A stretch of 64,000 nt of DNA, from contig NW_021167079.1 in NCBI RefSeq assembly GCF_003711515.1, positions 3,111,998 to 3,175,997 of the forward strand, read 5' to 3'. Source of the stretch: Sodiomyces alkalinus F11. Lineage: Eukaryota > Ascomycota > Sordariomycetes > Glomerellales > Plectosphaerellaceae. This document shows, one piece after another, positions 1 through 64,000 of the stretch. Each line of letters starts with the position of its first letter. Positions within the stretch are counted from its first letter, which is position 1. The notes under the pieces were generated by a model. The model had not been told where the DNA came from and searched no databases. It saw only the letters and a list, made by a program, of their open reading frames with translations. Position numbers and translations under genes: made by a program.

Positions 1-102
1 TCCTTAATATATATATAGGTAGCGGATCCAGCGGCCTTAGAAAGGGGGGTTATATAACCGTCTACCGAACTACTCTAACGCCGTATCTGCGCGGTTATAA
101 TA
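1..102 (-). repeat. Gyp1 3' LTR, truncated by the window start
   Basis: This is nearly identical to 14403-14504, differing by RIP-type transitions. It ends in TAATA, a mutated TAACA. About 262 bp of the LTR should lie before base 1. Confidence 0.85.
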
Positions 103-120
103 CGGCCCTAATTATCTCGA

Positions 121-2190
121 TTACGCTCTCGTAGCGTAGATAACTCCTAAAAATAAGCAGATATAAGTTAATAAACTAAGTAAAGAGCTATCGTATACCC
201 TTATTCCTCTAATCACCCCGTCCTCCACGTATACCTGATTAGGGATCCTCTTAATTCTAGTTCCTCCATATATACTATTCCCTTACTATCTTCGCCGACT
301 ATTTCCTTAGGATATCTCTTATCCAATCCTCTATATATACCTTTACTTACGCTTTCGTAAGGTTCTTCCTCCGACTATATAGTTAGGCTTATTAGCCTTT
401 CTAGCCTCTTAATCAGCGGTAGCTTTATCTGCCTCCTATTTAATCCCCGCGTTATAATAAAGCCACCCTTCCTAAAGTACTACCCGAGGTGGCGGTAGAT
501 ATAGCGCGCTATTAGCCACTACGTCTCGGAGGCTAGCTTGGTACGGGTTATTAAAGGACTTAACCTATTCTTCCTTAGTATATAGGCTTAGCCTAATAGG
601 ACTAATACGCTTAGCTAGAGGCCGTATATCTATAAGTCTATAATAGAGAAGATAATAAGATATCTTAGTACCCTTAGCCTAGTACTTTATCTCCTCTTCC
701 TATTTATCTTAGATATCGTAGCTCCTCTTCTTTAAGACGGCTACGGGCTTAGGCGCCGCCTTAGGAGTCTTAGGCGTCTTTAGTATCTTCGGGGGCGGCG
801 TTTTCTTAACGGCCGGTGGCGTCTACTTCACGGCTTTCTTACCCTTTAGCGTCTAGAGCTCGAGACTACTAAGACCTACGTCGTTAATATCGCTACTACT
901 ATCGGATAATACTAAGGGGTCCTAGAAACTCTAGCCTAATATACTAGTAAGGTCCATAATATCGGGATTAGGGGAACTAATAAGATCGATAGACTCCTCC
1001 TTAGCCGTGGGCGTCGCGGGGGTCTTTAGCGTCTTAAGGCCCTTAGGCGGGTTAACCGGTATCTATTTCTTAGTCTTATTAATAGGCTAGAATCTAGTCG
1101 TTTTAGGGACTTCGGGAGGCGGCGTCGCGGGCTTTATGGCTAGCTCTGTATAGTAACCAAAGCCGAAGAGTTTACTAATATAGCTTACCTAGCCCTCTTT
1201 AATATACCGAGTATACTCCCCTATATTATTTCCGTAGTAGCGGCCTTAGGAGAACTTATATATCTTAGAGCTTTAGGGAAATAGATATCCCTCCTAGGCT
1301 AATACCCTAATCCATTCTATAATAAAAGGGCCGTATAAATAACCGTCCTGCTATATTAGACTAGGTATAATATAAAACTTCTTAGCTATACTATTAATAG
1401 CTTCCTTAGGGGCACTAATAGATACTAACTATAGTATCGCGAGATAAGCGACTTCGAGGAGATAGCGCTTACCTTTACCGTCCCACTATATACTATCGTA
1501 CCCGTATATAATCCAGGTCTCTTAGTCGATAATCAGGCTAATAAAATAGTTACTATCGATATAGCAGATTATAGGAATAAAGCGGCTAGTCCTAGTATAA
1601 TATTATGCTTTATCCTTAAGAGTTATAAACTCAGCTTTTCCTTTACTATTTACTCCTTAGCACAGGATCTCGTTAAGGAATATAACGGGCCTTAAGTCCC
1701 CTTACCTACGGCTACTCACCGCACTCACCACTTCTTCTATAATACCCTTTTCCTGCCACTTATCGTCCTTAATATTATTACGTAGATAGTAGGCTAATAT
1801 TAAAATAAAGCAGATCTTAAGGTACCGTTCACTATATAAGACTATTAGGGGTGACTATAATATAGCTAGTCCTATAATCTCTGCATCTAACCTATTATTC
1901 TTATTCTTATCTAAGAGTCCTTAAACTATTTACTAGCCGTCCTTCGAGATCACTCTAAACCCAGTATAAGGGGTATCGTTATCTACGGCCTTAAAGAGGC
2001 GGTGCGGTAAACTACTCGCTAGGAACGCCTATCTACTCTTCTTAGGATTATACTCTTTACGGGGCCTAGTCCTTAGCTCGATAGCGGTCCGTCCCTTAGG
2101 CTAAACGCCCTTATTCAGTTCGGAGCCTTTAGGGGCGGTGGCCTAGTAGTCTATAGAGTTACTAACGGCTATAGTGTCGATATTCGCAGG
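121..2190 (-). pseudogene. Gyp1 accessory ORF: decayed Ulp1/C48-like cysteine peptidase with Lys/Pro/Thr-rich tail
   Basis: One minus-strand frame runs about 690 codons, broken only by TAG/TAA codons explained by RIP of CAG, CAA or TGG. The first half reads as an Ulp1/SENP-type (family C48) core. NxFISLIID is followed by IYGYDS, where the His position is Tyr (TAT, 1546-1548) and the Asp codon is at 1495-1497. Then comes QQDGYxxGPF, where the Cys position is Tyr (TAC, 1333-1335). Both changed codons are single RIP-type transitions from CAT and TGC. The second half is rich in KTPK/PPK repeats, then acidic/serine, then a short basic segment. C48 peptidases remove SUMO or similar modifiers; a role in this element is inference. 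The start codon is not identifiable. It lies between pol and the 3' LTR in the same orientation as pol. An unrelated adenain-like fold remains possible. Confidence 0.65.
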
Positions 2191-3180
2191 ATCTAGCGTT
2201 TACGGTTACTTATATTACCCTGATTAGGGTCTTTAGTAATAATTCCTTACGAAAAAAAAAAAAGAGAAAAGGAGGGAAGGGGGCGTTTAGGAGGGGAAAC
2301 GGGGAGGTCAAAATAGTAGAAAAAAGGGTAAAATATAATAGAAAAAGGACGGGTAAGCCTGAGTTTATAAGGATATATTAAAGGGGAAGATCAGGATTAA
2401 GGCTAAAAAGGGTTCTATTTATCCTCCGAGGACCTCTTCTAAAGGCCCTTTCCTTTAAGCAGGAGTCCATAACTTATAACTATAGCTCGAATAGTCTTTT
2501 AGTCGTTAAAGGAGGTTATTTCCTAAGCCGTGATAAAGATAGCCCTTATAAGTCGGAAAGAAGGTGCTAAATTAGGAATTCGATATTAGAAACGCCTGCT
2601 ATAATTAGCCTAACTAGCTTCGGCGCTTACTATAATTAGCTAGTAAATATCGGATAAGGCTTTTCGTTTATTATTAGGTAATAGGCGGAGTTATAATTCT
2701 ATAATAAAGGGAAATAAAAGGAGGTAGCTATAAATAGCTATAAAGGCAGGTCGAATAGTTATAATTACTTTATCAGAGACGCCTCCTCTAACTTATAGAA
2801 GCTATAAGCCGCTTAGTAAATATCTTTACTTATCGGTCTCTTAAATATAAAAAACGCAGGATCCCCGGCTCTTCGTTCCTCTTCTCCTAAGTAATATCGC
2901 CACTTCTATAGTTATCTTCACCGATAGCACTATTATTATAATAAATTCCTAACTTCTTAAGCATATACTATAGCTTCTAAGTATATAATTAGGGTATTAA
3001 ATATAGTTAAACCGTATAAACGTAAGAAGGCCGTTAGTAGACAGGAGTCCGTTAAGCCTATTCTGTGGTTTTAGTCTAAGATATATTTAATAAGGGATAC
3101 TCCTAATAAGTATAACGTTTAGGTAACGCCTATAGATATAATTATAAGTTTTCCTTCCTTATTTCTCGTGGTTACCCTAA
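2191..3180. other. Gyp1 internal non-coding spacer
   Basis: I see no ORF. It holds a poly-purine run at about 2250-2310, one palindrome at 2217-2230 (ACCCTGATTAGGGT), and a second at 3175-3186 (CCCTAATTAGGG) just before the opposite-strand ORF. Confidence 0.5.
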
Positions 3181-4188
3181 TTAGGGCGTGCTAACTTCGG
3201 TGCTAAGGTTAACACTTATGTCGGTTAGTTCGAGGTAGCTAGTAAGGGCGGCGTTTCGTACGTCGAGCTTGACCTTCTATCTTCGGTCGTCGATTTAGAT
3301 ACCCGGTTTACCGTTACGAACCGGTTTTAGGATACCTTATTGAATATTACTAACCGGGATATGGAATAGGCTTTATTTAGGGAGATACGTGACTTCTTTA
3401 AGACGCCTTTATTCCGCCGCCGTATCTTTATGGCTAAGGACCTCGCGGGTCCCTAGAGAGAGTATATTATAAAGATCGTGACGAGGCCTTACGCCGCTAG
3501 GGCACTTATCGTGCAGGTATATAGCGTAGTTAATAAGGTGCCCTGCTAGTACTACGAAGAACGCTAGACCGCTATAATAGATCGGGTTAATAATAAGATC
3601 ACGTACCTATTCTATAAGTGCGTCTCCTTACCGTAGAATCCACGCTTCCCCGACTACGCTAACTGCCTATTCTATAAGTCTACTTACACGTTCCGAGACG
3701 CGGGCCTTTATAAGGAGTTCTAGTAGGCTAAGTATAAGATTAGCTAGCCCGATAATAATTACCCCGGCTTTAAATACTATAATCCCCTCCCTAAGAATAA
3801 CTTAGTGTTACTGTAGTCTTTTTATAATAATAAACGATACCCGATCTACTCGCCTCGGACCGGTATCTTCCTGGTTAATATAACCGTTATAGGCTACGAG
3901 ATTACTTATTAGATACGCTAGGTTTATAGCGGTAAGACCGCTAAGGCTTATAATAGCTTACTTAGTCTTATTCTAATACTCTTAGCTCGGTATAGGGAGG
4001 AGGTGGATAGGTATTATAATATTATCCGTAAGGCTAAGGAGGTGCCTAACCGGGAGGAAATAGTTATCTACTAGACTATTCCGCTTCCTAAGGGGGCTTA
4101 GGTCTAGCGCCGGGTCTCTAAGAAGTATAGGCCTAAGGAAGGTAACTATAAAAGCGACCCTAACCCAGAAACTGAATTATTTACTTAA
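3181..4188 (+). pseudogene. Gyp1 opposite-strand ORF, unrecognised family
   Basis: A single plus-strand frame of about 336 codons ends at TAA 4186-4188 and is interrupted almost only by TAG codons that fit RIP of CAG or TGG. It runs opposite to gag-pol and to the Ulp1-like ORF. The product would be rich in Tyr, Arg and aromatic residues, with two Cys-containing stretches (near FYKCVSLP and YANCLFYKS) and a basic C-terminus. I recognise no conserved domain and cannot fix the start; the frame is already open at 3181. Palindromes lie immediately upstream (3175-3186) and 13 bases after the stop (half-copy). Frame maintenance through about 1 kb of RIP-mutated DNA argues it was a real gene before RIP. 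It could be a transposon-acquired host gene. Confidence 0.55.
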
Positions 4189-5554
4189 TAGGGTATTTTA
4201 TAATTAGGGGAATAGCTAGTAAGGATAGGTGCGTGGTTTACTAGGTAGCTTATAGGGACGGGAATCAGGTAGTTAATTAACTAAATAATATAACTTTAAT
4301 AGATAAACGGGATTTCTAAGAAGCGATGTTCCCTGGTGATTAGGGCTTTTGCTCTTTTCGCGAGAGCTTCGAGATAGGTCTAATCAGGGGAATAGATAAT
4401 AAGGTTAGGGGAAAAAGGTATAAAAGGAGGTTTTCTTCGTGGTTTATCTTCTTCTCTTTTTCCTTCTTATCATAATAATCCGTTTTCTACTCTATACGAG
4501 TAGACTCCACGGGCCTATTTACCGATAAAGCCTTTATAAGAAGAATAAAATTTATAGGTAATAGCCGGTAGTTGCTTAATTAGGCTAATAAAGCTAGGGA
4601 ATCCCCGGATTATCCGGTTTTTATTATTATTATCGCCGTCGTTATCGTGATATTACGTTTTTCTTTTTTAGGGGGTTTTTCTAGCGGGGCTCTTAACGCC
4701 GTTGACTTAGTGTCTTAAACTTACTCTTCTGGTGATAGGTATAGTATTAATCTTCTCTTTCTGGACGAGAAACTTACGTGTAGTAGGTTTAAGGGTAATA
4801 TATATATATATACGTGGTTAGGGGAATAGGGGTGTAATATTAGTAATAGAGAGAGCGATTAGTAATAGAGATTAGGAAAAAGGGGGCTTTAGGTAGTGGA
4901 AAGGAGAGGGCTTCTTATACTTTTTTTAAAATCAGGCTATTAAGATTAACGTAATAACTTAATAAGTTACTAGTACTAGGGTTAGTAAAGGAGGGATTTA
5001 TAGTTTATGGCTTATAGCCTTTGACGGTATTTCTCTTGATTATATTATACCCTTAGTAACCGTTCCTATACTATTTATTCCCGACTATAACTCCCTTTCG
5101 CAGAATAGGCAGCTTATATTAAACTAGGTATAATTTAGCTTAGGTCCGATAAATTATACGGTGATTAGGGGAATAGAAGTAAAGAATTTAAGATTATAAT
5201 AAAAGAAACCTATACTTATTATAGAAAAGAGAGTGTATGGTGGTATATCTCTATAATGTCTACGTAGTTAGGCTTACTTATAAATATAATAAACGATAGA
5301 TATAGGAAAAAGCCTTCTAATCGGGGAAATAAGTCTGGATAGGTTTATAGTGCTTCTGATTAGGGTAATAAAGGAAAAAGTTTAAAAAAGAAACGGATTA
5401 GGGTGATGGTTAGGAAGAGTATTTATAGATTTACGCCCTTTATACTAGCGTATATCACGACTCTAAGTGGATAAAAGACTTAGCTTTATTTACCCTTAGC
5501 TCTAAGACTACACGCTAGCCTCCTAGCGAGTGCAGGCTTTAAAAATAAAGGAAA
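4189..5554. other. Gyp1 spacer between opposite-strand ORF and gag-pol end
   Basis: There is no convincing ORF. Five or more full or half copies of the Gyp1 palindrome lie here (4380-4390 and 5356-5365 two-armed; 4201, 4335 and 5162 one-armed), so this is the densest part of the element for that motif. Confidence 0.5.
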
Positions 5555-8500
5555 TTAGGGAAAATAATAATAAGGAATAAAATACAGCTCGTTAGTATAA
5601 TCCTCGTACTTACTCGGGTTAAAATCTAGGCGCTATAGAATCTACACCTCGACGGTACCAGACTCCCTTACCTATTTTAACTCTTCTTCTAGCTTCTTAT
5701 AATACTCCGTTAATAACTCTCTTAGTCTTTCGGAGCGGCGTAAAATATCGTTAATAGTATAATTAGGGGAACTAATGTTATCCTCGGCCCTAGTATCTTC
5801 CTAAGGGTCCTCGCTAGGTAAAAGGAGTGTTTCGGTGACTTCTTCGGTAATAGGCGCTCCTCGGGCAGGGTACGTGATCTTAAGCTCTTCGCTATAGTCT
5901 CGTTTAAGTATAGTCTAGTCCTTAGGCTCATAATACCTATCGTCGTTTTTAATAAACTTCTTTAGGCGGTTAGCGGTAAAAGTAATCCCTTTTAGTTCTT
6001 CCCTAGTAAGAGTCTCGAGGATAAATGACTTATTATCTTGATTAGCCTTCCAGATACGATATAGGCCGTTCTAGCGGTAGTCGAGCTTAGCCTTACAGCT
6101 TATATCAATAGCTTTCTTAGTATCGTGAACTAGTATAAGATCCTTAACTTATAGCCTTTACTTATAGAGTACCCGGGCACGGCTAGCGTTAATATAGGCT
6201 ATCCGTCGCCCTCGTTATTTAGTAATTATAGTAATAGTAGCTTATCGGTTAGTATTAAGCTAGGCAAAAGCCCTTAACCGAAGTATTATCTTATTCTTAG
6301 GGGTTTTAACGCAGCCCTAGTCTAGTACTCTTTAGGTTAGGTAGGTTATCTTAATCGGGGTAATAGTCTTATAGCCGTGTAAAAGGAAGAAAGGGGTACG
6401 GCTAGTAGAAGCTCTTATCGTTATACGGTTAGCGAAAAGGATTATCGGGAGGATCTCGTAAAGGGCTCTAGGGTAAAGCTTCGACTAGATAGATAAAGCG
6501 TAGGTAATAGCCTTATACCTAACCTCGTTAAGGCTATTAGCGCGGGGGTAGTAGGCTAAGGCGAGTTTTCGAGTAGTCTTATAACAACGGTTTAGCTTAA
6601 TTATATAACCCTTATGCTCTAGACCTTTATCTATAAGGAGAATTATATAGAGCCTATACCTATAAATTATATCTTCCTATAAGAACGAGGTAATAGCCTT
6701 AGACGTATTCTTCTTTAGTAGTCAGGCCTTAACCCAACCCATAAATATATAGCGGGCCTCTACGAGATACTATCCTTAGAGATATTAAATATCCAGGCAG
6801 ACCTAAGTAAAAGGGAGGGCGGTTTCGGGCAGGCTTATTACGATTAGGGGGTCCTCCTAGGAACGGCTACGGCGGGCCTAATATCCAGAACAGGACTCGA
6901 TAAACCTCTAAATGCTCTTATAGATACTATCCTAGAAGTAGTTAGCGGCGAGGCGATAATAGGTGCCTTACCTTCCTTGATATCCGGATTCGTTATAGGC
7001 TCTCCTGATCAGGTTAACCTAGATATCCTTATCGTTAATCTAGCGTTTAGGGGTCGAATCGGCTTTAGTTACTCGGGTCTATAGTAGTCTATCCTTAAGG
7101 AATACACGGGTGGCTCTATCTTTAACTCTACGGGCTTCCTTAGGATTTATTCCTTTAGGCACGCGAAAGGTCGTTAAGAAGGTGGCTACTTATCGGGAAA
7201 ACTAACTCCAGGTAAGGTCCTTATCGAGGATATCGTTAGCTAAGGCAGGGTTATCGAACTACTTCTCGGCTTCCGTAAGGAAGATTCTATCGTCCACGAA
7301 ATCGTCTAGGTCTCCTTCGGTATCGTTATTAGCCTAATTAAAGGGTATTCCGGGTATCCGCGAGAGTCTATCGGCTATAGTATTCTTAGATCCTTTAATA
7401 TACTTAATATCGAAGTCGAAAAGCCGGATCTAGGCGAGCTATCGGGTAATTAGGGTATTAGGGAAGTTAGTAGTAGATCCTTTTAACTAGGATAAAAGGG
7501 CTTAGGTATCGATTTCGAGGATAAAGTGAACCCTATAGAGGTAGTTACGTAGGCGCCGAAGGGTTCTTAGGACTCCCCTTAGCTCTAGCTTACTAGTATT
7601 ATAAATCCTCTTTACGGGAGATTAGCGGCCGCTTTCGTATCGTGCTATAGCTCTTTTATCCTTAACGTACTATCCGAGGATTCTACCCTATCTATCCGTG
7701 CTAGCGTTGACGATAACGTAGATAACTCCTACGCCTTCGCCGTACTAGATAGTAATCAGGATAGGGGTAGAGGTAAGGGCTTTCTTAAGGGCGTTTATAG
7801 CGTGTTATTAGGGCTCCTCCCACTTAAAGGTAGTATTCTTCCGTAGCAGGTTAGTTAGGGGTCTAGCGATAATAGCGAACTTATAAATCCAGACTTAAGT
7901 AAAAGGTAATATAACCGAGGAACGAACGAATATTAAAGACTATACTATACCTTTCCTACTCTCGGACCTTCGTAATCTTAGCCTACTTAGGGGAACGACT
8001 ATTAATACCGCAGATATAGCCTATAATAGTGGCTGCTTTCTAATACTACTGGCTTTTAACACCTACGATAGTGCCTCTAGCTAGCTCCACGTTAAAAAGT
8101 ACTTTATCGATATTAGCGATATACTCGGCTAGAAAACGGCGAATTCCTAGTCTAATTAGGGTATCCTTATAGGTGGTTATCGGTCCTTTTACTATAATAT
8201 CGTTAATAAAGGGTCTATAGTACTAGGGAATAAGGTCGTAAAGGATACGAGTTATAATACGTATAAACTAGGTCACTAAATTAGTAGCCTCCTAAGGAAG
8301 GGTATATATCCTAAAGAGTCTAATAATAGTCGTAAAGGTAGTTAAATCTTAAGACTCCTTGTTAAAGGTGACCTAATTATAGCCGGAGAAGAGGTCTAAG
8401 AGGGATATAAGCTTATATATAGCGAGATCCTGGGAGAACTCGTCGGCCCTAGGCGGTATAAAGGCATCTTAAAGGGTTACTGCATTAATCTTAGTAGCCG

Positions 8501-11500
8501 AGTTAATAAGCCGTATATTACCGTCCTTCTTCTTAACTAGGAACCAGGGGTTACGATAGGCTACGTGGCTCTCTTTAATCACACCCTTCTTAAGGCGGTT
8601 TTTTATTATCTACACGACTATAGACTCTAGAGTCTTAGGGATAGGGATCCCTTTCGCCTACCACACCTTATAAGGAACCGCTCGAATCTTCTATAAAGGG
8701 GCTACCCGTTCGTTAAGGCGGCCGTACTTAGTCTAGTCCCACGTAATAGCTGCTTCGCGGTTTAGGAGGACCTTCGTTAGGAGCTCCTTTTCCTTAAGGG
8801 TTAAATAGTTAATAGTCTTTAGGATCGCGTCGAGTTTTTCGGGTATAAGGCGCGAACGGGGTATAATTTTAGAAAACTTCGGTATAATCAGGCTAATAAA
8901 CCGCTTATCTTCTAGCTCCTAGTCTTCCTCTTTAATTTGTACGAGGATATTCTTCTTCTAGTAGGGGTCTTTATTAGGGACACTTTTATTAGATAGGACG
9001 TCGTTAAAAGGGTAAACCTTAAGAGCCTTCAGCTTCTATATAGTAAAGACGCCTTCGGGATTAGGGGGATAGTATGCTTCTTTAATAAGATCCTAGGACT
9101 TCCTCCTTTTCGGCTACTATAGCCTCCTCTTCGTAACCACGGCTATACTAATAATACTATCCTCCTCTTTCTTTAGAGCCTTGAGCGCTTTTATCTAGGA
9201 ATTATCCTACGTTATCCGGTCCTTTCGAAAATATAAGACTAAGAGGCTATTAGGGTAATTAGGCTAATAGTAGTATAGAAAAGTCGAAAAAGATAAGTAG
9301 TTAGTATAAATTACTTAGTATTATATAGTCGTAGTTATTATATAGAGAGCCTCCGCGACACACCTCTTATATCCTCGGCCCTAATTTCGTGGTATCGCCC
9401 TTAAGGCTATATAAATTCTCTTCGTTAGAGGCTTTACCTCCTCCGTAAACAGGAAGGCTACTAAAGCAGTAGCGTCCTTATTATCTAAATAAAAGAAAAT
9501 ATCGTCGTTACTCTTCTTTTATTCTCCTCCCTCGCCTCCTCCTTCTCTTTCGCCCCCTAGTCGGGCGAACCGCTAATCCTATTATTACTCGATATTAAGG
9601 TAGCGGCCCCGGACTAACTATAAGGGACGCCGTCCTCCCCCTACTATCCGATACTTAGATCGATTAAATCCTCCTCCTCTTAACGCTTCTCCTCCTCTTT
9701 AAACTTAGGCTAGCTCTATCGATAAGGGCGGTCGTCGACCTATTCTCTACTAGCGATAGGGACGATAATACGGGCGTCTCTATAGGCGAAGTCTATATCG
9801 ATCTATCCGTCCTTATAAGTGAAAGAGGCGTGACTATTAAGTAAGAATAATAGGCTAAGAAGTATCCTAAGCCTTATTCCCTCGATCACTATAAAATAGA
9901 CTTTCCTATGCTAGTCCCCGACTTAAAGGTGCTCCTCTAGATATCCTGCGTAGTTTACCCTATCTATATCGTTAATCCCTTTAATCGCGATATTACTTTT
10001 ACCGACACGACCCCGTAGTCCTAGCTTCTCCACGAGGTCTAGCCGGATAGTGTTTAAGACGGCTCTTATATTAATAACTACGTAAAAACGGTCCTCTATA
10101 GGGTAGGCCTTAGCTATTCGCTTAGTTAGGCTAACCCGTATTATTATATACTTAGCGTAAATAGTAGGAGGCTTTAGTTTATTAATTATCGGGGCGGGCG
10201 TAATAGATAGGGCACTATTAGGCGTAGGGGGTATAATCGTGGTATTCGTAAACTATATAGGGCGTTCGGGACCTAAGGGTAAGGAGTCTATAAAAAAGGC
10301 CTTTTTAGGGGTTAAGCGGATAACCTTACGAGGCTTTACCTAGCTACTGATTAACCTTAGCGTCTCCTTATAGTCTACCAGGGTAGCTCTATTAGTAGAG
10401 AGGAGGTAAACTATAGGAACCTTAACCTCTATCTCTAAAAGGTGCTTTAGGCTCTTCTCGCGGACCTTCTATATAACGGCCTCCTAATTAAATAAGTCAA
10501 GGGTATCCTTTTAAGCCGAGGCTCGCGAGATAGGCCGAGTAGTAGTTAAGGTGGTAATAGGTCTAGATATAGGGGCTATCGAATTAGGGGTTAGGCCGTT
10601 ATCTATATCGGTGTCGTTAACTATCTCTATAACCCTTTAGGAGCTTTCCGGAGTTATTAGAGTCTATTAAACGGCCTAATCAGAGGAACCAGCTACTTTT
10701 AGCGTGGGTTTACTAATTCTACCGCTCCTAGTAGTGCGAAAAGGGTCTTAGGGGTCGGTCGAAGTGTATCGAGATATAGACGTAGTATATACTCTAGCTA
10801 TAATAAAGTTAATAGATCCCGTGACCTTAATAACCCTTGAGGCTTAAGTGGCTTAGATGGCCTAACTACTCTGACCGGTCTACTACTTCTATGCCTGCTT
10901 AACTATATACTTAATTATAAGCCTATTAGTCTTATTAGTCTTATAGGAGAGGGTAGCGGGCTGTTACAGCCAAGAAGAAGAGACCAGTTCTGCAGAACAC
11001 GACGGGTCGAATAGACATTGGTCAAGGAACACACGTCATGTGCGGGGGGTCACGTGATAACAAGAAGGAGGGATTGCGGGATCACGGTGAGCCAGTGAGC
11101 CGGGAGCGGGGGATCACGGTGAGCCAGCGATCCACGATGATGGATCACGACGGGGCGTGAGCCTACATAAGGGGGCACTTAGGGGAGTGAGCTAGGGGAA
11201 GGAACAAGTATATAAGGACTCGGAAAAGTCATGTATCTAGTTAGATCACTCACCTCAGTGTTCAATCTAAGTCTTCATTGGAAACCTCCTTGAGTATCAC
11301 AGTGAAGAGGCAGACTTGCCTTACGACCGCCTACGAGAAGTTACGAGAGACTTACGCTCAGCTTGCAACCTCCTCTTACCTCGTGAACGCAAACTCACGA
11401 TAACCCCAACTAGGGATCCCAGACTTAGTGTCCAGGAACCCAGGTCGTAACACGGGCTAGAAGGTCTTAATATAGAGGTCTACGAGCTCCTTAAATCGGC

Positions 11501-14115: not shown

Positions 14116-14140
14116 CGAATAAATCCGCCTCCGAGCACCA
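14116..14140 (-). other. Gyp1 primer-binding site candidate
   Basis: Immediately inside the 5' LTR, the minus strand starts TGGTGCTCGGAGGCGGATTT. The complement ends in CCA and looks like a tRNA 3' arm: 7-nt acceptor strand, 5-nt T-stem, then the T-loop. The isoacceptor cannot be named with confidence. Confidence 0.6.
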
Positions 14141-14504
14141 TATTATAACCGGATAAAGACGTAGTGGCACTAGATCGTTAAGATGAAGATCAGATAAAGA
14201 GGTTAGTCCAGTAAAACCACGATGCATAACCAAAACATAACCAATACCGCTATAACCTTTAGCGAAGAAGTAGATCGGTAGTCACTATTCTGATTAGGGC
14301 AACGTAAGTTAAACTAGAAAGATACCTTAAACGTAGAATAAGTAATTATAAAAGAGGATAATAATTATATAATAGTCCCCCGATAGGGACGTCCCGAGCC
14401 TGTCCTTAATATATATATAGGTAGCGGATCCAGCGGCCTTAGAAAGGGGGGTTATATGACCGTCTACCGAACCACTCCAACGCCGTATCTGTGCAGTTAT
14501 AATA
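14141..14504 (-). repeat. Gyp1 5' LTR (364 bp)
   Basis: Terminal inverted ends are TATTATAACCG and, in the left copy, CGGTTATAATA (mutated TGTTA...TAACA type). It shares its last 102 bp with the window start. It carries a palindrome copy at 14290-14299. Downstream sequence from 14505 is Copia pol. Confidence 0.88.
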
Positions 14505-14510
14505 CCTTAA

Positions 14511-59251: not shown

Positions 59252-61850
59252 ACCACCGACTAGAACGCCTATATCTATTAACGACCTCTCTAAAAAGGGG
59301 CGTACGCGCTACCTATAAGATCGCCGTGTATACCGCGAGGAAAAGGCAGACTATAACGCGTAGCAGAAGGAGTTTAACGAGGTACGCTCCTATATTAAAG
59401 GGACCGTTTATACTACGTTATATAACCTCCTCGCTTAGCTATAGGATAACACCTTAAATAACCTATAGGCTTAGATTACTCTCTTATACGCGTACGTAGA
59501 ACTAATACTTATAGACCTCTATAAAGAAGCCTTAATCCTATACCGACGATATACTACGCTAATAAAGGCTATACCTAAGGATATAGACGCTTAGGTAATA
59601 AGCTAGAAAATAGCGATAATACACTATAAATATATAGGCGTTTTAGAACTATTAAGCGTAGACTATTAGGTAGAAGACGCGTTAAAAGCCGTTAGACCTA
59701 TTACCTAGGAATAGAGTAATAACTACCTAGTAAATAACTACGATAAGATTACGGAAAACGAACTAACGATTAACGACTTCGTAAAGGCTTTACGGGCGGT
59801 TGTTAGTAATATAAAGAGCCTATAATCCACCGCTATAAAGCCTAGAGTTAGGAGAGGCACCTTTAATACCCTTAGGAACCTCCCTAATACTAAGGATACT
59901 GCTAATAACGATAATAATAAGAAACGCCCTTATAGTAATATATCCGTAAAGGCTATCCCTCCTATAATAAGGAGGCCTTACGAGATATATAAGAATATCT
60001 ATACTACCGCCGCCTATTAGTACGTAAGGCCGGATATACGCCCTTATACCTAGCGTAGCTATACGTATTTATAGTTTTAAAAGCCGCGTGGATACCGCGA
60101 TATAGAAGAGGCGGGAAGTAGTAGCTGCGACCGCTAAGAAGATAGAGGAAGTTTAGGAAGATTAACTCTATAATACTACGCCTACTACTACTATAGTTTA
60201 TAAAGACCTATCCGTTACCGCGATAGGGAGACTAAGAGCCCCCCTAACATAAGGGGTAGCGCATTATCGTATAACGACACTATTAAGATTATAATAAGAA
60301 TAAGGGATATCCCTTTCTATTAACTAAGCCAGAGCGCTATTATACTACGCGATCCTAGACTTAGGATCGTTAATCTATATCTTTAATAATTAAGGCCGTT
60401 TTACGGCTATTAGACTACCCACGGTTAATTTATTAATGCTTTAGGTGGGTATTTATAAGGCTCCTATCCTCGGATACGGAGATATTAAGCTATATATATA
60501 ATCCTTAACGGGCACGAAAAGGCTACTACGCCTCCGTAACGTTATATACTATAAAGAATTCGTTACTAATATTATCTCGGAACGCTAGCTACGCCTATAA
60601 GGTTACCGTTAGGATACCGTAAATAATACTATTATTAGCTCCGCCGATAACCGGCCTATCTATAAGCTTCTAGATATCCACGGCCAGTATATAATCGAGC
60701 GCGTAGAAGCTATAGCCGCCACCGCGTTCGCGGTCTTAGTAAGGCACCCCCGCGATAACCCGTATAGAAGATCACGATAACCGCAGTAACCGTAGAAGAC
60801 TACGGTATAACGGTGGCACGAACGCCTTAGCCACTATAGCACCGATACTCTTATAAAGATCGTCGACGCTATTTAAGGGGTAAAGATAAAAGGACTACGT
60901 ATAACGGACTATAACGCGTGTGGATAGTCGTAAATACCTATATAGATCCGGCGGATACTATCTCTTTACCCGTTAAAGCCCGGAGAGGCCCTAGCTATTA
61001 ATTTTCATGATCTAAAAAAGGCGGAGTAGTTAGCGGGCGGACTATATAAGTCTATTATATTCGTTATAGACGTGTATATAGGTTATACGTGGGATTATTA
61101 CCTATAGAAGAGAGACTAAGGCTCTATCCTATACGCTTTAAAGGATATTTTTACCCTACTTAAGACCTAATTCGACGTTAGGCCACGCGTTCTACGGGCC
61201 GATTCTAAGATATTTTAGCACCTAGAAGTCGTTACTTTCCTCGCTACTAAGGGGGTAAAAGACTAGCTATCAGTATTATACTTATAGGATTAGAATAGCG
61301 TAGCAGAATGGATTAAAGGCATTATTAAGAGAAGGGCGAGGGCTATAAGGATTAAAGCCAATCTGCCTATATCTATCTAGCCTAAAATCTTTAAGACTAC
61401 TATATATCTATATAATAGGACGCCACGATATATTAACGACTAGGGAACGCTATATAAAGGTCTACACGGCCGTTAACCTAACCTTATACACCTACGAGTA
61501 TGCGGCTATAAAGCCTTTATAAAAACACGCGATACTTAAGCTAAAAGGAACCGCCTATAAAGGCTAGAACCGAAGGTATAGATCGGTTATTACGTCGGAT
61601 ACTAATCCTCGAATAGCTTCCGGATTTAGCTACTATACCTAATAGATATTATCACTATAAGAGACGTGGTCTTTAACGAAGATAAGATATTTAACGGCAG
61701 GATTAAAACGCTATAAGCTATAGCTTCCGCTAAGGAAATCGGGGAACGCCTATAATCCATCCGTATCACCTGTACCCCGACCGCGAATAGGCTACTATTA
61801 AGGGGTATAGCTATAGACGTATTAGATCTTAAGTCGGAAGACTTTTACGC

Positions 61851-62095
61851 TACCGCTATTACTACGGATAAAGGTAAGGCCGTTACTATTACTATAAGAG
61901 AGGCTACTACTATTACTATAGACTATACCGCTATTACTACGGACACCGCTATTACTACGGATATTACTATTACTATAGAAGAAGACTATACCACCGCTAT
62001 TACTACGGGTAAAGGCGACGCCACCGCTATTACTACGGATAAAGGCGAGGCCGTTACTATTACTACGAGAGAGGCCACTACTATTACTATAGATA
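61851..62095 (+). repeat. In-frame coding minisatellite in Cop2 pol
   Basis: Repeats of ACCGCTATTACTACGGAT and variants encode TAITTD / TTITI units joined by short KGEA-type linkers. They lie between integrase and RT, in frame with both. Confidence 0.85.
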
Positions 62096-62098
62096 AGG

Positions 62099-62139
62099 TT
62101 CTAAATCTATAGCCTAATAACTAGGCTATAGATTTAGAA
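62099..62139. repeat. Perfect 18-bp-arm hairpin in Cop2 pol
   Basis: TTCTAAATCTATAGCCTA (62099-62116) and its exact inverse complement (62122-62139) flank a 5-base loop ATAAC. It sits directly after the minisatellite and is still in the coding frame. Confidence 0.9.
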
Positions 62140-64000
62140 TCTTATAACTCCGACGCTACCGCTATTACTATAGGAGAGGCTACCGCTATTACTACGGATA
62201 CTTCACGGTTTACTACTACGAGGTTTAAACCGTTTCCCACGCCTTTAATATCCCCTAAAGATCGCGCGCGCGTGTTCCTTATAGCGTTAGCGGTAGTTAG
62301 GGGCGCTAAGGTGAAAGAATACGATAACCACTAACGGACAGCTATAAGTGCCCTTAGGGGGTGCCCGTCGGCTATACTCTAGTCGGCCGCGCGCCTATTA
62401 CCCACGCGCCTATCTATCGCGAGAACTATTATAAGTCTATACACGACCGAGAAGGTCTAGAATAATAACGCCTAGAAGGCGTTCTTTAACGCTAGCAGGA
62501 CTTATAACCCCACACGTATAAGGAAGTAAGCTATTAACGATAACGATATCGGTGCTATAGATTCCCCTTATACCTCCTAGCCGCTATCGCTATCGTATAT
62601 AACCCGCGAGGATCTCCCGCCTCTACTAAACCACTACCGCGATATACGCCTTTATCCGTTACGGGAGCGGTAGTTATAGGCTAAGGGGGAATACCTTAAG
62701 GGGCACCGATAAATAGGCTACTAGTAGGAGGTAGGTAGTAATCAGGCTAATAAGTAATAAGTCCTCGCCTATAGATAAGTATATACCTATAAATTTAATA
62801 AAAAGGGCACCCTCCTTAAGTGTAAAGCACGCCTTATAGTCCGAGGGGATTAATAAAAACAGTTAGAGACTAAAGATAACTACGCTATAACGCTAGCCTT
62901 ACGGTCCTTCCGTATACTTATAGCGATCACCGCCCGATTTAACCTAAAGATAAAGCAGTTCGATACCGTTAACGCGTTCGTTAACGCTAGTCTTAAAGAA
63001 GAGGTGTTTATAAAGATACCGTAAGGCTATAAAGTACTAGGTAAGGTCCTACTACTACGGAAAGCCCTCTTCCGTTTAAGAGTATCGCCACTACTATAGT
63101 AAGAGGAATTTAGCGGCACGCTATACAGGATAGGCTTTATAACCGTCCCTAATAACCCCTATATTATAATCCGCGACGGTTTAATCCTATTCTTCTACGT
63201 TAACGATATCGGACTTATATACTATAAAAACCGTAAGACGGACGCCGATAATCTTAAGGCTGCCCTTAAATAAAGCTATAGGTTATTAGGAGGCGAAGAA
63301 ATCCGTTAGTTCCTGGGAATTAAGGTCCTAAGGGATATAGCCACCCGTAGGTTATAGCTATTATAATCCTCCTATATAGAGAAGATCGCGGTTAAATACT
63401 ACGTAGATATACTCTACTAAAAACCACTAAAGGTCCTATTATCTATAGAGCCGGTAATGCCCCGAGATAGCACCCGCGCGTTGATTCCCGAGGTCTATTA
63501 GTATCAGAGAATAATCGGTTCTATCCTATACACCGCTATCGTGATAAGACCCGATATCGCGTTCGCCTACTCGAAGCTTTCCTAATATAACGTTAACCCC
63601 TCCTCTAACTACCTTAAAAGGGCTTAATAAGTGCTGCTATTCCTATACTATATAAGATACCACTACCTAGAATTCAACGGGGATAGGCTCTTCCAAATAA
63701 TAAGCGACGCGTCCTTTAAGGATAATCCAGACTATAAGAGTTCGTAAGGATATACGATAAAGCTCTTTAGCGGCACCGTTAACTGGAAAACGGGTAAATA
63801 ACCGATAGTCATAACGTTATTAATAGAATCGGAACTACTCGCTTTTATAGAGACCGCTAAAAAGACGTTATTCGTTAGCCGGATATTAAGGGATTTAGAG
63901 CTTCGGCTAGACTAATAATAGCTATAGCTATACTATAATAATTAATAGACTATTAACCTCGTTAATAAGAAGGTATAACGCCTGCGGATAAGGCTACGGC

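Follow-up and report, generated by a model that had tools for sequence, protein, structure and literature searches.

A probable Ulp1-type (C48) peptidase gene carried by decayed Gypsy retrotransposons of Sodiomyces alkalinus

What did the long reading frame between pol and the 3′ long terminal repeat (LTR) of a fungal Gypsy retrotransposon encode, and what would the element have gained from it? The frame lies in a stretch of 64,000 nucleotides from Sodiomyces alkalinus F11 (NCBI RefSeq assembly GCF_003711515.1, contig NW_021167079.1, positions 3,111,998 to 3,175,997 of the forward strand; hereafter the window), in which positions 14505 to 1, read on the minus strand, hold an LTR retrotransposon of ~14 kb with Gypsy gene order and the damage of repeat-induced point mutation (RIP). 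An earlier note, made from the sequence without database searches, had read the frame as a Ulp1/C48-type peptidase gene. The best overall explanation, to which we give a probability of about 0.55, is an accessory Gypsy C48 gene whose product would be an intracellular deSUMOylase favouring the element, within a cassette exchanged among related elements.

The reading frame and the protein it encoded

We searched the 43.4-Mb genome (22 contigs) and found at least 44 stretches matching the open reading frame (ORF) of the window (subfamily A; best 40 of 120 candidates scored) and at least 40 matching a second, diverged C48-type ORF (subfamily B; best 40 of 69 candidates scored). Subfamily B came to light beside one A copy, in a search with the RIP-simulated profile described below. 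Thirty A loci, among them the window's own copy (L005), and 20 B loci were fetched. The base composition of the 30 A loci is that of strong RIP, with TpA/ApT of 1.75–2.12 and a CpA-type index of 0.13–0.30.

In the window copy the frame spans 704 codons (2232 to 121, minus strand) with 42 stop codons, counting the terminal one; these are TAA or TAG throughout, never TGA. The stop count alone is unremarkable, as block shuffles of the same sequence gave 56.5 ± 6.9 (lowest 34). Of the 30 A loci, 21 nevertheless keep the frame of ~703 codons free of frameshifts wherever they align. When 27 A copies were aligned as DNA, blind to frame (the three truncated loci excluded, relatedness not corrected), the transversion columns that recur in more than one copy were distributed 24/18/56 over codon positions 1/2/3, or 102/115/137 when singletons are included. 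Between A and one B copy (L055), transversions at the three positions number 116/105/191 over 674 codons. Subfamily B retains the frame at ~41–45% amino-acid identity to A in matches of at least ~590 codons, and most long B matches start at ORF residues 10–28. These patterns indicate that, before RIP, the ORF coded for a protein under constraint, and they bear out the single decayed frame of ~690 codons that the earlier note had described. It had been placed alone between pol and the 3′ LTR; it does lie there, but an antisense ORF that the note missed (~3190–4187) shares the gap.

Among the 30 A loci, an LTR begins immediately behind the ORF in 29, the exception being the truncated L023 and the LTR of L005 being seen over its first 103 bp; in 20 of 20 B loci an LTR lies downstream, partially in L052 and L056. 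The window aligns colinearly with two further copies over 2.1–14.5 kb, except for a 490-bp insertion and small gaps, and over the C48 ORF. A separate inserted element is thus excluded: the ORF is a fixed part of the retrotransposon, as had been claimed.

Very probably the protein was a cysteine peptidase of the Ulp1 type (C48) whose His-Asp-Gln-Cys active site was complete until RIP set in, an identification that draws on a RIP-simulated profile, on the active-site residues of B and on matches of B to PF02902. The core has the spacing H-17-D-54-C with Q six residues before C, and the solved chains of Ulp1, SENP1 and SENP2 share the His-17-Asp spacing and the Gln six before Cys. Copies of A mostly carry Y, D or N, a stop and Y at these sites, which is the expectation under RIP. 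The motifs quoted from the window (NYFISLIID, IYGYDS and, after a stop, QDGYLYGPF) were all found. The KTPK-rich part is present as well, but as a linker and not as the tail it had been taken for, with ~190 conserved codons following it.

Subfamily B is less damaged at the key positions. Its pattern is NHF, then YDS 17 residues on, with Q six before C; the anchor motif occurs in 11 of 20 loci, with His (GNHF) in 9, Asp 17 residues on in 7, Cys ([YH][S/L]C) in 9 and Gln in 4, and all four residues stand together in two copies (L050 and L055). For the first B copy PF02902 was the sole Pfam family returned (E 0.065 with X at stops; 0.0025 and 18.1 bits with stops read as Q/W), and, with E allowed up to 10, it came up for 5 of the 16 B copies searched (best E 0.001). 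At one locus (L018, G000:C7:2300247-2303863), the C48 ORF of a B element appears to be interrupted by an inserted A element, the B reading beginning right after the A LTR.

Direct searches with A fail, as RIP would lead one to expect: it converts the codons of His (CAY) and Cys (TGY) to the Tyr codon TAY and makes stops of CAA, CAG and TGG. We therefore left the ORF unmended and built a profile from nine C48 domains put through simulated RIP, six of them PDB chains and three encoded in this genome. Among 400-residue pieces, 28 of 30 A loci were within the 45 best rows (11.5–24.0 bits, E 6e-7 to 7e-3; L007 and L010 outside), and 26 exceeded the best of 1000 shuffles (12.6 bits). Across whole forward frames the ORF core was the top-scoring place in all 30 A loci, at 3.9 bits in L007, 6.3 in the frameshifted L010 and 8.6–21.1 in the remaining 28; the second-best place reached at most 6.2 bits, save the B ORF beside L018 (14.4). 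Mean scores were 16.9 bits for 22 A frames (lowest 5.4) and 17.5 for 15 B frames (lowest 5.5), against means of at most 6.1 (A) and 5.0 (B) for 100 column-permuted profiles and of −2.6 (A) and 3.2 (B) for the unmodified C48 profile.

Several results weigh against the C48 identification. The window ORF had no match in Pfam, NCBIfam or PDB searches, a profile of 21 A copies found nothing in PDB, and PF02902 matched none of 21 A copies at E up to 10 (whole ORF with stops as X; residues 40–375 with stops as Q/W). The window ORF, the 21 A copies and one B copy returned no homologue from a set of 5.8 billion proteins. The B bit scores shown (13.5 and 18.1) lie under the Pfam cut-off of 20.7. With the RIP-simulated profile, a non-C48 frame at ~61 kb of the window scored 11.4 bits, the best row that is neither family nor shuffle; the very low whole-frame score of L007 belongs to the least RIP-marked A copy, alongside that of L010; and individual column-permuted profiles reached 12.4 (A) and 14.2 (B) bits on one copy. 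Two structure models were poor (pLDDT, the predicted local distance difference test score, 39.5 and 38.5), and a fold search gave no significant match, with Ulp1 26th (E 0.25); by eye, strands and helices succeed one another as in C48. Neither the models nor the fold search was counted as evidence. The missing Pfam match in A and the lack of a trusted fold could mean that the ORF encoded some other protein that resembles C48 by chance. Given the RIP-simulated profile with its permuted and shuffled controls, the active-site residues of B and the PF02902 matches of subfamily B, we regard this as scarcely credible. A C48 profile match was thus lacking in the window copy and the 21 A copies and came only by way of some B copies and the adapted profile; the Ulp1/C48 interpretation itself is supported.

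A C48 gene might also have been captured once, from the host or from a DNA transposon, and have been carried as a passenger without function for the element. Ulp1 domains do occur in Mutator-like, Ginger and Crypton elements, according to published accounts that are drawn on here and below in part. A passenger is very improbable in view of the codon constraint, the active site kept in a lineage at ~43% identity and the position of the ORF before an LTR in 49 of 50 loci.

The segment between pol and the 3′ LTR

Of the 30 A loci, 28 contain the antisense region; it is absent from the stretches covered for L009 and L027 (the latter incomplete). Homologues of its ORF in B show 44% identity over 321 residues and 46–59% over shorter parts. 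Within A, shared transversions number just 3/2/4 over the part examined and are by themselves no proof; the conservation to B favours a coding function.

Window and B copy L045, the one B copy on which the comparison is based, differ unevenly along their length. Through gag, pol and the non-coding stretch after pol they are 83–91% identical with 0.8–3.0% transversions per 500 bp, and over the last 500 bp 85% identical with 4.2% transversions. Between 501 and 4500, identity drops to 49–63% and transversions rise to 17–23%. This segment, comprising the C48 ORF except its last ~100 codons, a spacer and the antisense ORF, has diverged ~tenfold more than gag-pol. Its edges are sharp in 50-bp steps: on the right, transversions go from 2% (4401–4450) to 28% (4351–4400), and on the left, within the C48 ORF, from 2% to 20% across 351–550. 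Bins with the non-coding spacer between the two ORFs diverge like the ORFs (17–21%).

From this pattern we infer that the C48 and antisense ORFs probably form a cassette between pol and the 3′ LTR, exchanged among related elements, likely by template switching between co-packaged RNAs during reverse transcription. The alternative is that the segment diverged in place through fast or diversifying evolution, as in an arms race with the host. Within A, the full copy L015 speaks for divergence in place and against exchange: its C48 ORF also diverges more than its surroundings, with 2.8–3.8% transversions in window 501–2000 versus 0.6–2.4% in other bins. The sharp edges and the equally diverged non-coding spacer fit exchange by recombination better, and the codon positions are under constraint; we consider divergence in place unlikely.

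A palindrome, CCCTRATYAGGG, occurs at 2218–2229 and 3175–3186, shortly upstream of both accessory ORFs. In A it precedes the C48 ORF at 22 of 30 loci, but in B it sits within the ORF, for which reason we give it no role.

Possible role and known counterparts

How would an element profit from such an enzyme? We suggest tentatively, at a little under even odds, that it acted as a deSUMOylase in the host cell. A C48 enzyme encoded by the element and made inside the host cell would strip SUMO, or a related modifier, from host repressors of chromatin or transcription, and their lowered SUMOylation would raise the levels of element RNA and cDNA. Yeast Ty1, Ty2 and Ty3 are repressed by the Nup84 complex, which for Ty1 acts through the tethering of Ulp1; truncated, untethered Ulp1 raises Ty1 RNA ~3.5-fold and transposition 89-fold, and the authors attribute this activation to reduced SUMOylation of unidentified factors (PMC8585004). 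An element with its own untethered C48 enzyme might gain as Ty1 does with untethered Ulp1.

Other observations pull the other way. Ty1 RNA also goes up in a yeast ulp1 mutant whose localisation and activity are both impaired (PMC8585004), which makes the direction of the effect uncertain. All copies looked at, of A and B alike, are decayed and an intact relative did not turn up, so activity and substrate cannot be read from them. SUMO-dependent silencing of elements in this fungus has no support from the present analysis.

Some relatives of the C48 peptidases are viral processing enzymes. The peptidase could accordingly have been the element's own maturation enzyme, cleaving Gag-Pol as adenain-type relatives cut viral precursors and leaving host SUMO alone. 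Pfam saw no aspartic protease in the pol pieces searched in A and B, as this role would have it. In 3 of 4 copies examined, however, pol holds a retropepsin-like stretch, VVINI[RGE]AV[LF]N.IRLDL[VI]EKLGL, which Pfam did not confirm and whose first residues would fit a RIPed D-T-G. A maturation protease should moreover co-evolve with gag-pol, yet divergence of the C48 core between A and B far exceeds that of gag-pol. The retropepsin-like stretch makes the maturation role appear the less likely one, and we hold it to be improbable.

Returning to the deSUMOylase, one may speculate further that the cassette was a counter-silencing module at the position of retroviral env, pairing the C48 enzyme with an antisense partner, and that lineages swapped it by recombination and so stayed abreast of host control, much as exchange of env serves retroviruses. 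This extension is doubtful. If true, exchange of whole cassettes would be a fungal counterpart of env swapping. A C48 gene in a swappable segment hints at an element-borne means of loosening host control.

Parts of this arrangement have precedents. Boty-like Gypsy elements of Botrytis cinerea carry an antisense gene, brtn (PMC7264820, PMC8365987). Like the present element they are fungal Gypsy elements with an extra antisense gene between pol and the 3′ LTR; unlike it, they are described, in the parts of these sources drawn on, with the antisense gene and no C48 peptidase. The antisense ORF is possibly a counterpart of brtn, with which it agrees in position and orientation.

Ulp1-type domains are borne by elements of other kinds. 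Kaonashi/KIU genes of plant Vandal (Mutator-like element, MULE) DNA transposons include one, and KIU elements induce hypomethylation of their own kind and escape silencing; these are plant DNA transposons without LTR, gag or pol, however, and what their Ulp1 part does is reportedly unknown (PMC13317346). Ginger1 DNA transposons carry a Ulp1 or OTU domain and share with the present element the combination of a Ulp1 domain and a Gypsy-type integrase, but they are cut-and-paste elements with terminal inverted repeats, in which Ulp1 is a C-terminal domain of the transposase (PMC2836005). CryptonF and CryptonS also encode a C48 peptidase, but are tyrosine-recombinase elements of oomycetes (PMC3212892). 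Large Gypsy elements of Phalaenopsis with an AlkB RNA demethylase likewise have an acquired enzyme that may counter host control; they differ in the enzyme, in their plant host and in that activity was shown in vitro (PMC9289625).

Accessory genes in LTR retrotransposons, antisense extras in fungal Gypsy elements, and Ulp1/C48 domains in MULEs, Ginger1 and Cryptons are thus already known. The main text of a screen for extra domains in LTR elements of 121 angiosperm genomes mentions neither C48 nor Ulp nor a peptidase (PMC9289625), and no C48 gene in a Gypsy or any other LTR element was met among the titles, beginnings of abstracts and passages listed in searches of the open-access literature, in keeping with the earlier note, to which no described fungal Gypsy element with one was known. 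What appears new is a C48 gene that belongs to the regular make-up of two Gypsy-element lineages, and a cassette of C48 and antisense genes. The SUMO pathway of yeast is already known to affect Ty1 RNA levels (PMC8585004). Should the enzyme prove to be a deSUMOylase, the fitness of retrotransposons in filamentous fungi would be tied to the SUMO pathway in a testable way. The RIP-simulated profile, for its part, offers a general route to recognising RIP-decayed genes without mending them.

Element architecture and surroundings

Along the element follow the 5′ LTR, gag-like and pol frames, a 3′ region of ~5.5 kb and the 3′ LTR (Table 1). RNase H precedes integrase in A (by Pfam) and in B (by Pfam, with H2C2 weak at E 0.015), which is Gypsy order; the reverse transcriptase domain gave no Pfam match. 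The direct LTR repeat within the window (1–103 versus 14403–14505) is 95% identical, and the reading of two further A copies extends as far as the 5′ LTR. A terminal repeat of only ~105 bp was rejected, as the full LTR in other copies is 365 bp. In two copies read at both ends, no clean target-site duplication was found.

Table 1 Features of the element and its accessory segment, in window coordinates.
Feature	Position	Strand	Remarks
Putative C48 peptidase ORF, decayed	124..2190	-	~690 codons; final stop 121–123; start uncertain, near 2180–2190
Predicted C48 catalytic core	1300..1590	-	active-site pattern, RIP-simulated C48 profile
Core sites in window copy		-	Y(His) 1546–1548, Asp 1495–1497, stop(Gln) 1351–1353, Y(Cys) 1333–1335
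KTPK/Pro-rich linker	733..1050	-	between core and C-terminal region; residues ~395–500
Conserved C-terminal region	124..690	-	~190 codons; last ~100 differ little between A and the compared B copy
Antisense accessory ORF	~3190..4187	+	~320 codons, stops as X, ends approximate; between pol and C48 ORF
Candidate exchangeable cassette	~430..4400	-	17–23% transversions per 500-bp bin inside versus 0.8–4.2% outside (window versus B copy L045)
5′ LTR	14141..14505	-	365 bp; ends TATTATAAC..GTTATAATA
Presumed primer binding site	14124..14140	-	TGGTGCTCGGAGGCGGA, immediately after 5′ LTR; sequence read, role inferred
3′ LTR, first 103 bp	1..103	-	remainder left of window
pol part	6872..7822	-	RNase H 7520–7822 (E 5.8e-9), then integrase H2C2 6872–7018 (E 2.2e-4)
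Later insertion	10963..11452	.	490 bp; missing from two other copies

The bin around the 490-bp insertion has a higher GC content. Other C48 matches in the genome do not belong to this element and were set aside: three intact host-like frames, two of them compared with PDB, and one unrelated decayed copy. A decayed gene with a C48 domain, apparently outside this element family, lies at 1501–1881 of L004 (G000:C11:294915-295295). Elsewhere in the window, a plus-strand frame at 60601–62400 with many stops resembles a Copia-type integrase by eye, no search having been made, and the repeats D2, D4 and D5 connect window 14.5–16.2 kb with 62.7–64 kb.
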